52,523 bases of DNA from Acidobacteriota bacterium (GTDB taxonomy: Bacteria; Acidobacteriota; UBA4820; DSQY01): assembly GCA_040752915.1 (NCBI GenBank), contig JBFMHB010000012.1:1-52523 (forward strand). The letters are read 5' to 3'. Position 1 is the first letter of the stretch; each line of letters opens with the position of its first letter. The translations under genes and the position numbers were made by a program. This document shows positions 12,099-16,872 of this stretch, piece after piece. Under the pieces are notes generated by a model, which ran no database searches, had not been told where the DNA came from, and saw nothing but the letters and a program-made list of their open reading frames with translations.

Positions 12099-12656
12099 CT
12101 ACTTCACGTCGATGAGTAGGAACTCATCCCGGCGGTTCTGCTGCCAGCAGGCCTCGTCGTGGCTCTGGCAGGCGGGACGGGACTTGCCGTAGGAAACGGT
12201 CTGGATCCGGTCCGCCGGGACGCCGAGGCCCACGAGGTACTCCTTGGCGGAATTCGCTCTCCGCTCGCCCAGGGCGAGGTTGTACGCCTCCGTGTTCCGC
12301 TCGTCGCAGTGCCCCTCGACCGATACGCGGAACTGTGGATGGGCCAGGAGCCAGGCGGCGTTCTCCTTCAGAATGGGTCTCGCGTCGGCGCGGATCTCCC
12401 ACTTGTCGGTGTCGAAGTGGATGCGGCCCAGAACACCCTGGCGGTTGAAGGCCTCGGCGCTGCTCTCCACGTCGAGGGAGGGTGTGGCGGGCGCCTCCGG
12501 TGTCCAGGTGCTGGGAGGGGGGGCCGGCGGGACGGTCGTTCCCGGGCCGGGGCCCGCGGAGGCGGCCTCCTTCGTGGCGCAGCCCGTCAGAAAAGCGACC
12601 AGCAGCAGAAGCAGCGCCAGGAGTGCGGTCCGTCGGAAGGCCTTTTGCGCGCTCAT
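12099..12656 (-). CDS. pal: Peptidoglycan-associated lipoprotein Pal
   Basis: 185 residues. ATG at 12656 has GGAGGT 4 nt upstream; an in-frame ATG four codons earlier overlaps that site. Lipobox LTGC with acylated Cys26, a Pro-rich linker, then an OmpA-like peptidoglycan-binding domain (about residues 75-185) with VEGHCDERNTEAYNLALGE and RRANSAKEYL, the Pal hallmark. It anchors the outer membrane to the cell wall. A TAGAAT box at 12681-12686 overlaps the stop codon of the acetyltransferase gene and could provide a separate start. Otherwise pal-cpoB may be read through from the kamA cluster. Confidence 0.95.
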   Translation of the reverse strand: MSAQKAFRRTALLALLLLLVAFLTGCATKEAASAGPGPGTTVPPAPPPSTWTPEAPATPSLDVESSAEAFNRQGVLGRIHFDTDKWEIRADARPILKENAAWLLAHPQFRVSVEGHCDERNTEAYNLALGERRANSAKEYLVGLGVPADRIQTVSYGKSRPACQSHDEACWQQNRRDEFLLIDVK

Positions 12657-12683
12657 ATCAACCTCCATTCAGTTGAAGGCATT

Positions 12684-13214
12684 CTACCGGCCTCCAGGGG
12701 TCCCGGGCAAGGGGGAGGCGTCGGTGTCACCGGGCCCGGCAAGGTGCCGCACGAAAACGACCTTGTCGTCCCCGGGCGCGTAGAACTCCCTCAGCCGGGC
12801 CTCCTCCCGGTAGCCCATCCGGAGGTAGAAGTCCCGGGCGGGTGCGTACCGGGGAAGGGACGAGGTCTCGATCACGCACAACCGGGCGCCCCTCGCGGCC
12901 ATGTCCGCCTCGGCGTGGGAGAGGAGGAGGCGGCCGACGCCCCGCCGCTGATGGGCGGGGGAGGCGGCGATCCAGTACAGGTCGAAGGTCCCCAGTGTGC
13001 AGGGGGTGGGGCCCCAGCAGGCGTACCCCGCCACCTCGTCGCCGGCGGCGGCGACGGCGAATCGGTAATCGGGATGGTCGGGCCGTTCCAGAGCGGCGTC
13101 CACGAGCTCCAAGGCCACGGCCACCTCGTCCTCCCGAAACACCCCCGCGGAGCGGAGCAGGGTGGCGATCGGGGAACGGTCCCCGGGCTGGAGGGCCCTC
13201 AGCTTCAGGTCCAC
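12684..13214 (-). CDS. GNAT-family N-acetyltransferase of the kamA cluster
   Basis: 176 residues from a GTG at 13214 that overlaps the 3' end of the preceding ATP-grasp gene by 10 bp. Motif A is intact: LYWIAASPAHQRRGVGRLLL, the acetyl-CoA pyrophosphate loop RRGVGRL at about residues 90-100. The C-terminal strand/helix FYLRMGYREEARL is typical of GNATs acting on small amines or amino acids. In methanogens, lysine 2,3-aminomutase (AblA) is paired with a beta-lysine acetyltransferase (AblB). A comparable role here is inferred from context and is not demonstrable from sequence. Substrate unknown. Confidence 0.85.
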   Translation of the reverse strand: MDLKLRALQPGDRSPIATLLRSAGVFREDEVAVALELVDAALERPDHPDYRFAVAAAGDEVAGYACWGPTPCTLGTFDLYWIAASPAHQRRGVGRLLLSHAEADMAARGARLCVIETSSLPRYAPARDFYLRMGYREEARLREFYAPGDDKVVFVRHLAGPGDTDASPLPGTPGGR

Positions 13215-14323
13215 GGCTCGTTCACCTCGGCGGCTCCGAGCACCCGATGAGTCAGTTCGGAGTAGTCCCACCCGTGCGCCTTGGCCTGCTTGGCCAGCCC
13301 GGCGGAAGGGGAGAAGTCGGGGTTCGGGTTCACCTCGAGGATCTGGAGGTTTCCCTCCCGGTCTTCCCGGAAATCCACCCGAGCGTAGCTCCGGCACCCA
13401 AGGGCCAAGTAGGCCTCGCGGGCGAGCGCCCGGACGCGCTGGATCAGCTCCGGCTCCACCGGGGCCGGGCAGACCGTCGGCGTGGCGCGATAGGCCTCGC
13501 TCCCCTCCGCCCACTTGGCGTCGAAGGTCAGGACCTTCGGGTGGGAGGCGGGCATCTCCTCGTAATTCACGAGCGATGGGGGGAGGGCCACGATGCCGTC
13601 GGGCGTCTCCACCACGGAGCAGTTCAGTTCCCGCCCCGGCAGGAAGGGCTCCGCCAGGACGCCCGCCGGGAAACGCTCCAGGAGGACGCGCACCCTCTTC
13701 TGGAGGTCCTCCGGGTTCTGCACGAGGTTCTCGGCCTGGATGCCGTGGCTCGCGTCCTCGGCGGCGGGTTTGAGGAAGGCGGGGAAGCCGAAAGGGGGAG
13801 TCTCCGCGGCTTCGCTGGAGCGTTCGTACACGCGGAAGGGCGCGGTGGGAAGACCGGCCGCCTGGAGAAAGCGCTTGGCGATGGCCTTGTACAGGCCGAG
13901 GTGAAGGGAGAGGGGCGGGCACCCCGTGGAGCGGAGCCTCAAGGTCCTCAGGTGGATGGCGAGGGCCACCTCGCTGGGGGGGTCGTCGGCGAACCCTTCG
14001 AAGAGGTTGAAGACGGTGGAGCCCTTGGGGAGGGATTCCAAAGCGCGGGCCGCCCCGGAGAGGGGCGGTACGAGGGGAATCCTCTCCGCGGGCCGGCCCC
14101 CCTCCTCCAGGGCTCGGCAGACACCCTCGACGGTTTCGAGGACGGCCCGTTCGGCGATCCCTCCGTCCAGATCGCTGTCGAAATCGTTGTACAGCACGAA
14201 GACGGGCTTCCTCCGGAGGGTGAAGATCCGGAGTTGCTCCCCCTCCCACTCGGCGGCCGAGGGTTTCGGGGCCGTTTGGGGCCCCGGGGGCGAGAGGGAC
14301 CGATCCTGGGGAGACTGGGTCAT
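13205..14323 (-). CDS. ATP-grasp ligase, D-Ala-D-Ala ligase-like (second)
   Basis: 372 residues; ATG at 14323 with GGGAGC 7 nt upstream. An N-terminal pre-ATP-grasp segment (FNLFEGFADDPPSEVA) resembles the VFNxxEG motif of Ddl enzymes. The ATP-grasp fold follows with a lysine strand FPAFLKPAAEDASHGI, the adenine-binding stretch VLAEPFLPGRELN and the metal-binding ending RSYARVDFREDREGNLQILE then VNPNPDFSP. Catalytic Asp/Glu/Asn residues appear present. It probably forms an amide bond with an amino-acid substrate. It is one of two adjacent, clearly different ligases, so it is unlikely to be simply the housekeeping Ddl. Confidence 0.85.
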   Translation of the reverse strand: MTQSPQDRSLSPPGPQTAPKPSAAEWEGEQLRIFTLRRKPVFVLYNDFDSDLDGGIAERAVLETVEGVCRALEEGGRPAERIPLVPPLSGAARALESLPKGSTVFNLFEGFADDPPSEVALAIHLRTLRLRSTGCPPLSLHLGLYKAIAKRFLQAAGLPTAPFRVYERSSEAAETPPFGFPAFLKPAAEDASHGIQAENLVQNPEDLQKRVRVLLERFPAGVLAEPFLPGRELNCSVVETPDGIVALPPSLVNYEEMPASHPKVLTFDAKWAEGSEAYRATPTVCPAPVEPELIQRVRALAREAYLALGCRSYARVDFREDREGNLQILEVNPNPDFSPSAGLAKQAKAHGWDYSELTHRVLGAAEVNEPWT

Positions 14324-14349
14324 GACGGCGCTCCCACGTGAAGGAGGGG

Positions 14350-15345
14350 TCAGGCCAGGCCGCAGCGCTGGAGCGCCGCGCTCAGAATGGCCTCCATCAG
14401 TTGCGGGTAAGGCATGCCCATCCCCCGCGCGAGGATGGGGAGGTCCCCGTAGGTCGGGGAAAGCCCGGGGAGGGGGTTGATCTCCAAGAAAACGGGGCGC
14501 CCGTCCCGCATCCGGAAATCCACGCGGGCCGCGTCCCGGCACTCCAGGGCCTGGAAGGCGAGAACCGCATCGCCGTACAGTCGGTCAAGGGCCGGCCCAT
14601 CCAGGGGAGGCGGAACGTCGTACGCCACCCGGTTCCTCCAGTCCCGCTTCACCTCGACGGAATACACGAAGTCCGGATGAGGGCCCGCCTTGGGCCGGAT
14701 GCGCATGGCCCCGATGGCGCGGGGCGGATCGTTGCCCACGACCCCCACGGTGTATTCGTCCCCCGAGACGAACTCCTCGAGTAGGACGGGCTGCCCGTAG
14801 GCGCGGAGGGTGGCCTCCACGTGGCGGCGGGCCTCCTGAGGGCTCCGAACCACCGAGGCGTCGCGGATTCCCTTGGAGGATCCCTCGTAGGCCGGCTTGG
14901 CGATGCAAGGGAAGCGGAGCCCGTCCACCCGGTCCAGGTCCGCCGCCCGGCGCACCACGAGGTCCGCCGGGACGGCCACCCCCGAGAAGGCCACCAGCCG
15001 TTTGGTGAGGGCCTTGTCGAGGCTGAGGGCCAGCGTGAGGGGGTCGGACAGGGCATAGGGGATGCCCAGCATCTCGAGAACGGAGGGGACCTGGGCTTCG
15101 CGGCTGCGAAGGGTCCCTTGACCTTCGGCGATGTTGAAGACGAAATCCAGGCGCTCGGTGAGGGCCTTTTCGAGGAAGGACCGGCCCCCCCCGAGGGGCA
15201 CGACCTCGTGGCCGAGGGATTCGATGGCCGCGCCGATGGCGCCCACGGTTTCGGGCGGGTCGAACTCCTCGTAGAGGTCGTCGGGCTGCCCTTCCGCCGG
15301 TTCGCAGGCCGGCGGCTTCAGATCAAACGTCAGCCCGATTCGCAT
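14350..15345 (-). CDS. ATP-grasp ligase, D-Ala-D-Ala ligase-like (first)
   Basis: 331 residues, close to Ddl length. N-terminal domain contains VFNIAEGQGTLRSREAQVPS, the Ddl substrate-site region, and ALSLDKALTKRLVAFSGV. The ATP-grasp core shows FPCIAKPAYEGSSKGI, the adenine region PVLLEEFVSGDEYTVGV and the metal site AARVDFRMRDGRPVFLEINP. The start overlaps the end of kamA by 23 bp, so translation is coupled. Position directly after an aminomutase suggests ligation of a beta-amino acid or of D-amino acids. Housekeeping Ddl is possible but less likely given the pair. Confidence 0.87.
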   Translation of the reverse strand: MRIGLTFDLKPPACEPAEGQPDDLYEEFDPPETVGAIGAAIESLGHEVVPLGGGRSFLEKALTERLDFVFNIAEGQGTLRSREAQVPSVLEMLGIPYALSDPLTLALSLDKALTKRLVAFSGVAVPADLVVRRAADLDRVDGLRFPCIAKPAYEGSSKGIRDASVVRSPQEARRHVEATLRAYGQPVLLEEFVSGDEYTVGVVGNDPPRAIGAMRIRPKAGPHPDFVYSVEVKRDWRNRVAYDVPPPLDGPALDRLYGDAVLAFQALECRDAARVDFRMRDGRPVFLEINPLPGLSPTYGDLPILARGMGMPYPQLMEAILSAALQRCGLA

Positions 15346-16579
15346 GGACGGCCGTCCGGTCCCGCTTCACCAGGCGCGGCTTGCGGGGCTTGTCGGTTTC
15401 CTCGAAGGGGAGGGCGGGCGCCCGGCGCGGCCTGCGGGGGGGCGGAGGCGCTGGGTTTCGGTAATGGAAGATCCGCCCCTCGTAATTGCGCAGGACCAGG
15501 GTGTCCTCCGTGGAATAGAGGTGGTAGGTGGGGCCGAGGGGAATCTTCCCGCCGCCCTCCGTATCCACCACGAAGGTGGGCACCGCGAAGCCCGAGGTGT
15601 GGCCCCGCATCTTTTCCAGGATCTCGACGCCCGTCCAGACGGAGGTGCGCAGGTGCTCGGCCCCCCGCACCGGGTCGCACTGGAACAGATAGTAGGGCCG
15701 CACACCGATGCGCAGAAGCCCATGGCACAGCCGGAGCATCGTGTCGGCGCTGTCGTTGACGCCTCGGAGCAGGACGCTCTGGTTGTTCATGGGGACACCC
15801 GCTCGCTGAATGCGCCGGCAGGCTTCGGCGGACTCGGGCGTGATCTCGTTGGGATGGTTGAAGTGGGTGTGGACCCAGAGAGGGAGGTGGCGGGAGAGGA
15901 GGTCCGTCAGCTCCTCCGTGATCCGCTGGGGCAGAACCACGGGATACCGCGTCCCGATCCGGATGATCTCCACGTGCGGGATCTTGCGGAGCTCGGAGAG
16001 GCAGTAATCGAGCACCGAAAGGGGAAGGGAGAGCGGGTCCCCGCCGGAAAAGATCACGTCCCGGATCTGGGGCGTTTCCCGGATGTACCCGATCATGCGG
16101 TCGAGCTGGCTGCGGTTCTTGGGCTTCTCGCCGTCGTCCCATTCGCGCCTGCGCGTGCAGTGGCGGCAGTACATGGGGCACATGTTGGTGGCGATGAAGA
16201 GGGCGCGGTCCGGATACTTGTGGACGAGACCGTCCACGGTCATGTGGTTGTCCTCGGCCAGGGGATCCACGAGTCCCGGGTGCTGGGGCAGAAACTCGGA
16301 GGGCGAGGGCACGGCCTGCCGCCGGATGGGATCGTCCGGATCCTGCGGGTCGATGAGGCTGAGGTAGTAGGGAGGAATCCCAAGGTGCAGGCGAGGCCCC
16401 AGGAGCTTGAGCTGCTTGTACTCGGCGGCGGTCAGGGGCAGGAGCCGGGATAGGACGTCCAGGTCGCGGACGCGGTTCCTGTACTGCCACCGCCAATCGT
16501 TCCATTCGGCGTCGGTCGCCTCGGGAAAGAACTGGGCCCGGCCGCCCGCTCCTCGCGCGGGCGCCTCATTCGCGAGCAT
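15323..16579 (-). CDS. kamA: Lysine 2,3-aminomutase-type radical SAM enzyme (KamA family)
   Basis: 418 residues; ATG at 16579 preceded by GGGGAGGAG. The [4Fe-4S]/SAM motif CPMYCRHC gives Cys134, Cys138 and Cys141. Residues matching the lysine-binding set of clostridial lysine 2,3-aminomutase are present: Arg two residues after the last Cys (CTRRR), Asp in FQCDPVRGAEHLRTS and Asp in VVDTEGGGKIPL. Lys345 of that last motif should carry PLP. This supports alpha- to beta-lysine conversion, though glutamate aminomutases and EpmB are relatives. EpmB is less likely at this length and without efp or epmA nearby. A basic ~40-residue C-terminal tail is unusual. It heads a four-gene cluster with two ATP-grasp ligases and a GNAT. 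Confidence 0.9.
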   Translation of the reverse strand: MLANEAPARGAGGRAQFFPEATDAEWNDWRWQYRNRVRDLDVLSRLLPLTAAEYKQLKLLGPRLHLGIPPYYLSLIDPQDPDDPIRRQAVPSPSEFLPQHPGLVDPLAEDNHMTVDGLVHKYPDRALFIATNMCPMYCRHCTRRREWDDGEKPKNRSQLDRMIGYIRETPQIRDVIFSGGDPLSLPLSVLDYCLSELRKIPHVEIIRIGTRYPVVLPQRITEELTDLLSRHLPLWVHTHFNHPNEITPESAEACRRIQRAGVPMNNQSVLLRGVNDSADTMLRLCHGLLRIGVRPYYLFQCDPVRGAEHLRTSVWTGVEILEKMRGHTSGFAVPTFVVDTEGGGKIPLGPTYHLYSTEDTLVLRNYEGRIFHYRNPAPPPPRRPRRAPALPFEETDKPRKPRLVKRDRTAVHANRADV

Positions 16580-16590
16580 GGTCTCCTCCC

Positions 16591-16610
16591 CGCGGGAATG
16601 CGTTCCCGCG
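16591..16610 (-). promoter_or_regulatory. Hairpin next to the kamA ribosome binding site
   Basis: CGCGGGAA and TTCCCGCG form a perfect 8-bp stem with a 4-nt loop, ending only a few bases before the GGGGAGGAG site. It could protect the mRNA 5' side or modulate initiation. Confidence 0.5.
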
Positions 16611-16647
16611 AAAGAGCGCCGCGCAGAGCCCAGGAATCCGGCCAAGC

Positions 16648-16678
16648 AAAGAAAAAGCCTCGCCTGGAATAGGCGAGG
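16648..16678 (-). terminator. Intrinsic terminator inside the kamA leader
   Basis: Minus-strand CCTCGCC and GGCGAGG form a perfect 7-bp stem with loop TATTCCA, followed by CTTTTTCTTT. It lies ~160 nt after the inferred transcription start and ~70 nt before the kamA ATG, so it would act as an attenuator. A CGAGG in the preceding hairpin could compete for its 5' arm. Confidence 0.75.
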
Positions 16679-16844
16679 ACGGCACCGCCGGCGAGGGGCC
16701 GAAAGCCCCTCGGTGCCTGTGCGCACGCAGGCTCCTGACTTGTCCCTCTTCCATTCTCAGACGGAAGACTTTCGTCTCCCGACCTCCTCCTCTGGACCAG
16801 CCGCCGTTCACGACACCGCGCCGCGCACGTTACGACTTACGGGA

Positions 16845-16872
16845 AATATAGACCCTTACGGTTCGATGTCAA
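16845..16872 (-). promoter_or_regulatory. Sigma-70 promoter of kamA
   Basis: On the minus strand, TTGACA (16867-16872) and TATATT (16845-16850) are 16 bp apart. The -35 box overlaps the stop codon of the EamA gene. Transcription should start near 16838, about 260 nt before the kamA ATG. Confidence 0.75.

Follow-up and report, generated by a model that had tools for sequence, protein, structure and literature searches.

A Conserved Gene Cassette of a Lysine 2,3-Aminomutase-Type Enzyme, Two ATP-Grasp Ligases and an Acetyltransferase Probably Encodes the Synthesis of a beta-Lysine Pseudopeptide

The Four-Gene kamA Cluster and Its Proposed Pathway

A gene for a lysine 2,3-aminomutase-type enzyme (kamA), two ligase genes (Lig1 and Lig2) and a GNAT acetyltransferase gene were found to cluster far beyond chance. 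Judged from the protein sequences, the four genes probably act in a single pathway that makes a small, soluble pseudopeptide containing beta-lysine, and we rate the cassette as a probable case of ligase-built peptide metabolism with beta-lysine. The cluster was analyzed in a window of 52,523 nucleotides (the whole stretch of DNA studied, contig JBFMHB010000012.1) from an Acidobacteriota MAG that is 98% complete.

The four ORFs are all open, lie on the minus strand and follow the order kamA, Lig1, Lig2, GNAT. The kamA gene (15323-16579) has an ATG start with the RBS ggggaggag and encodes a radical SAM/PLP enzyme of 418 aa. Lig1 (14350-15345, 331 aa) and Lig2 (13205-14323, 372 aa, with an NPNPD signature) encode two D-Ala-D-Ala-ligase-like ATP-grasp ligases, each belonging to a clade of its own. 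The last gene (12684-13214) has a GTG start and encodes a GNAT acetyltransferase of 176 aa, a relative of PDB 2R7H. The kamA and Lig1 genes overlap by 23 bp, a gap of 26 bp separates the Lig1 stop from the Lig2 start, and Lig2 and GNAT overlap by 10 bp. The original prediction of a four-gene cluster had given its positions, overlaps and gap exactly to the base. The Pfam and NCBIfam families assigned were LAM_C/Radical_SAM, Dala_Dala_lig_C (twice) and GNAT, with EamA, OmpA and TPR for the neighbours.

In the proposed pathway, KamA would convert L-lysine into beta-lysine (3,6-diaminohexanoate). Lig1 would form an acyl-phosphate and then join beta-lysine to another amino acid or to a carboxylate. 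By the same chemistry, Lig2 would add a second amide bond, and the final N-acetyl product would arise when the GNAT acetylates an amine. That Lig1 acts on beta-lysine is a prediction, and so are the sequence of the reactions, the amino acids that serve as coupling partners, the site of acetylation and the role of the compound in the cell. Our leading guess for this role is an abundant cytosolic metabolite, for example a compatible solute or a polycation; a secreted compound is less likely. More tentatively, the product could be an unrecognised and widely shared bacterial metabolite: an N-acetylated di- or tripeptide containing beta-lysine, assembled without ribosome or NRPS, that acts in the cytosol of many mostly uncultured phyla as a general solute or as a polyamine-like polycation.

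Distribution and Conservation of the Cassette

The Lig1 alignment was scanned against one genome per species, which gave at least 560 relatives. A scan of genome contigs with Lig2 as a single-protein query gave no match, unlike the Lig1 alignment scan. Among the 80 best Lig1 loci of these relatives, taken from named genomes and picked irrespective of KamA, kamA adjoined Lig1 in 57; all four genes were present in 32 of the 57, and some of the absent genes are explained by contig ends. The kamA-Lig1 loci came from at least ten phyla (Acidobacteriota, Chloroflexota, Planctomycetota, Omnitrophota, Margulisiibacteriota, Lindowbacteria, Spirochaetota, Bacteroidota, Bacillota, Myxococcota/Deltaproteobacteria and Magnetococcales), and the gene order, on whose conservation in relatives the original prediction was made to depend, does recur.

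Within the Acidobacteriota, Lig1 was counted above 270 bits across 396 genomes. Lig1 was found in 64 genomes and KamA in 85. KamA was present in 62/64 of the genomes with Lig1 versus 23/332 of the others (Fisher p 2.6e-50, ignoring phylogeny), and in 55/64 of the Lig1-bearing genomes the two genes lay within 6 kb of each other. The divergence of the four proteins was correlated, with r of 0.83-0.94, which is in part expected from species relatedness. In the source family, the gene order was unbroken in every member whose contig covers the cluster. Elsewhere in the phylum, the order KamA-Lig1-Lig2-GNAT was found in G043 and G071 and the order Lig1-Lig2-GNAT-KamA in G046 and G208. KamA was unlinked from the Lig1-Lig2-GNAT trio in G016, G031, G040, G052 and G075, and the trio occurred without KamA in G036 and G340. 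Since KamA is missing or unlinked in such genomes, an amino acid other than beta-lysine may at times be the substrate of the ligases.

The composition of the cassette also varied. The GNAT or Lig2 was absent from several lineages, Lig2 was fused to the GNAT at two loci (L163 and L168), and one locus (L145) carried two Lig1 copies plus KamA. In some Omnitrophota and Margulisiibacteriota, a weakly RimK/LysX-like ATP-grasp protein stood in place of Lig2; with this protein and the additional Lig1 copy of L145, the role of the second ligase recurs by replacement. The recurring idea of the variants is an aminomutase, one or two carboxylate-amine ligases and a capping step. A general fifth gene was sought by an all-against-all comparison of the loci, and none was found, only lineage-specific neighbours. 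These included a GNAT-HDAC fusion, MarC, DUF3109, an S66 peptidase and a 5'-nucleotidase. An S66 LD-carboxypeptidase followed the cluster with a RimK/LysX-like protein at L134, and some Planctomycetota clusters ended in a cysteine-rich protein, which was DUF3109 in the one tested. A histone-deacetylase-family protein was seen at several Dehalococcoidales and two Planctomycetota loci. It lies beside the cassette at L164:4124-5857 and L099:10578-12314, carries a GNAT-like N-terminal domain in L164, and is a possible deacetylation step.

The Aminomutase, the Acetyltransferase and Comparison with AblAB

KamA contains the CxxxCxxC motif and the residues D302, D339 and K345, which aligned to D293, D330 and K337 of clostridial lysine 2,3-aminomutase (LAM). 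The three residues were invariant in 28 cluster KamAs, in agreement with the assignment of a lysine-type aminomutase that had been made from the lysine-binding aspartates and the PLP lysine. Their invariance points to lysine as the substrate rather than glutamate or arginine. KamA differs from clostridial LAM in that it lacks the C-terminal zinc and multimerisation part; this part, with its zinc-cysteine motif C.C..C, was present in 0/28 of the cluster KamAs. The enzyme scored below the cut-offs of the AblA equivalog model TIGR03820 (472.5 bits, cut-off 525.4), the EpmB model TIGR03821 (259.3 bits for P0001, cut-off 369.3) and the glutamate aminomutase model. It is the sole KamA of the source genome, and in the tree the cluster KamAs do not form one exclusive clade.

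A lysine 2,3-aminomutase-type enzyme together with a GNAT resembles AblAB, the system for N-epsilon-acetyl-beta-lysine synthesis. The cluster could accordingly be an elaborated AblAB osmolyte pathway with N-acetyl-beta-lysine as a compatible solute, a reading that gains from the near-consensus promoters upstream of kamA in several phyla, which suggest strong expression. We consider it unlikely. The cluster KamA is below the AblA cut-off, and the GNAT is of another family: it is close to PDB 2R7H (same family, E 1.5e-54), whose title, 'putative D-alanine N-acetyltransferase of GNAT family', is the depositors' name only. The AblB model TIGR03827 gave no match in the source genome or in 19 relatives, with the controls positive, and the GNAT (P0004) was likewise without an AblB match. 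Membership in AblAB as such was ruled out on the score of KamA and the absence of AblB; together with the two extra ligases, for which AblAB itself has no need, this upholds the distinction from AblAB drawn in the original prediction. No Na+ or c-di-AMP riboswitch was found in the six sources searched. According to the record titles, many hosts came from freshwater, groundwater, sludge and hot springs; they are varied and not specially halophilic, which argues mildly against a pure salt osmolyte.

The synthesis of NAGGN by AsnO and Ngg also combines an ATP-grasp enzyme with a GNAT. There, the two activities jointly yield an N-acetyl dipeptide, and the Lig2-GNAT fusions of the cassette are reminiscent of this arrangement. 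The cassette differs in having an aminomutase and probably also in its GNAT and ligase families, and an asparagine-synthase partner was not noticed. Ngg-type models were absent among the 6 families of GNAT P0004 and 25 of the 30 families of P0003.

Relation to the Modification of EF-P

Beta-lysine is also the building block of EpmAB, the system for EF-P beta-lysylation. Like the cluster KamA, EpmB is without the C-terminal multimerisation part (PMC2821294). The source genome encodes an EpmA/GenX-like protein (L253:3216-4226, minus strand, 336 aa) that scored 281.4 bits against a cut-off of 286.9, as well as an EF-P (L254:1492-2055, plus strand) with a lysine in its KPGKGSA loop. Strong EpmA relatives were found in the source family, in a sister family (f2) and in two other genomes. 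The sister family keeps a KamA of the same clade together with EpmA and with no ligases adjoining, which suggests that KamA feeds EF-P modification there. Because the EpmA-like gene is present, the single KamA of the source lineage may feed EF-P as well, so that it would serve two pathways.

It is less probable that KamA mainly supplies beta-lysine for an EpmA-like modification of EF-P, with the ligases and the GNAT as a separate passenger function; we would expect this in only a minority of outcomes. In six genomes (G016, G031, G040, G043, G046 and G052), KamA and the ligase trio occur with no strong EpmA, so the cassette of ligases is independent of EpmA. KamA not only fails the EpmB model but lies outside the EpmB clade, far in the tree from the KamA of G054, which neighbours EF-P and EpmA. 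The genes linked to KamA in the cluster are amino-acid ligases, not EpmA or EF-P. The supply of EF-P and the ligase pathway are compatible uses of beta-lysine and not exclusive.

The Two Ligases and the Housekeeping Ddl

In a tree of 95 sequences, Lig1 (39), Lig2 (43) and Ddl (13) formed three well supported groups. A separate Ddl was present in 19/19 genomes tested, and that of the source genome (P0005) scored 517 bits against an NCBIfam cut-off of 457. Lig1 and Lig2 scored 153 and 123 bits, under the NCBIfam Ddl cut-off of 243. Both share with DdlA/DdlB the fold, the ATP/Mg residues and the transition-state arginine: the equivalents of K97, K144, K215, R255, D257, E270 and N272 were kept in the two source-genome ligases and in nearly all relatives. 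Predicted models of Lig1 and Lig2 had pLDDT values of 95.6 and 90.4, and their nearest structures were Ddl.

The differences from Ddl lie in the sites for the first and the second substrate. In the D-Ala1 site, which is intact in 13/13 Ddl (E15/S150/Y216), E15 is lost in both Lig1 and Lig2. The position of Y216 is occupied by R, E or K in most Lig1 and by W in all 43 Lig2, and that of S150 by S or T in Lig1 and by A or G in Lig2. The acceptor site is changed as well, with D at position 282 in most Lig1 and N274/D276 in Lig2. Since the ATP/Mg residues are kept and the D-Ala1 and acceptor sites altered, Lig1 and Lig2 are most likely active ligases with substrates other than those of Ddl. Identity of either protein with the housekeeping Ddl was ruled out by the separate genomic Ddl, the clades of their own and the altered substrate site. 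The claim of two different ligases, neither of them the housekeeping enzyme, is thereby borne out; it had been open to the objection that one ligase might be the sole ddl and the other might lack active-site residues, and neither is the case. Owing to their resemblance to Ddl, such proteins are easily misnamed D-Ala-D-Ala ligases, which recognition of the cassette would correct.

Further ATP-grasp relatives were noted. Fused double ATP-grasp proteins of about 700-830 aa, related to Lig1 and with no KamA nearby, occur at the Myxococcota loci L140, L142, L146-L148, L150 and L162 and at L170; similar fusions adjoin Lig2 and the GNAT at L151 and L154. At L088:6733-8810, a lone Lig2-like ATP-grasp gene lies directly downstream of a putative zinc metallopeptidase (Peptidase_Mx) gene, and similar-sized genes are found upstream of a single ligase in other Acidobacteriota (L082, L085, L086 and L090). 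On the symbiotic plasmid pNGR234a, the gene of a distant relative of Lig1 lies next to one of the CapA family (L250:5893-8975), and similar ligases are found on other rhizobial plasmids.

The kamA Leader, the Neighbouring Genes and the Product

A promoter-like site TTGACA-N16-TATATT (16845-16872, minus strand, 11/12) precedes kamA and was aligned in other loci of the same family. The leader of about 260 nt (16579-16872, minus strand) has a conserved GARRATGGA..CAA motif near 16758 and, after the promoter and before the kamA start, an intrinsic-terminator-like hairpin (16658-16678, minus strand). Leader and hairpin align in six same-family sequences with a well conserved terminator stem, and the hairpin is a putative attenuator. 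An Rfam search of the leader returned no family. Judged by eye, many clusters in other phyla have a promoter-like site of their own upstream of kamA.

The pal gene (12099-12668) starts 15 bp past the GNAT stop and is followed by cpoB; cpoB and EamA were located where the original prediction had set them. From these neighbours, an envelope or export role had been proposed: beta-lysine would become part of the cell envelope close to Pal/CpoB, or EamA would export it. The pal-cpoB pair is directly downstream in five related loci of the same family, and the 15-bp gap would allow co-transcription with the GNAT. Both pal-cpoB and EamA are neighbours in the source family only, EamA being upstream of kamA in some members, and neither was found beside clusters in other phyla. 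No envelope-type fifth gene recurs, and the promoter and the terminator part EamA from kamA. The envelope link was rejected because the adjacency is not conserved outside the family, and we regard this role as very improbable. Of the two fates that had been offered for beta-lysine, a short peptide or the envelope, the latter is thus abandoned, and we infer that the short peptide is the better half.

ATP-grasp dipeptide ligases make antibiotic-like peptides, and the product could be a secreted di- or tripeptide of this kind. A plasmid of Thioflavicoccus on which genes for a related ligase and a KamA accompany 2,3-diaminopropionate genes would fit such a product, as would the MFS protein that follows KamA-Lig1 in L152. 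We give this little credence, since the cassette is stable and co-diverging over many phyla with no recurrent transporter or resistance gene. For the intracellular pseudopeptide that we prefer, a search of the literature found no description of the gene set or its product, in line with the statement that the combination has no assigned product; an earlier survey of the gene neighbourhoods of amidoligases (Iyer et al. 2009) may already mention it. That the four-enzyme set is kept in ten or more phyla speaks for a common metabolite without a name, and the pathway, if true, would be a third use of beta-lysine, next to N-acetyl-beta-lysine and the modification of EF-P.

The Thioflavicoccus mobilis plasmid pTHIMO01 (L252:2563-8044) carries genes for a diaminobutyrate transaminase, SbnA, a member of the ornithine cyclodeaminase family, a Lig1-like ATP-grasp protein and a divergent KamA. 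This gene group may be a diamino-acid peptide pathway.
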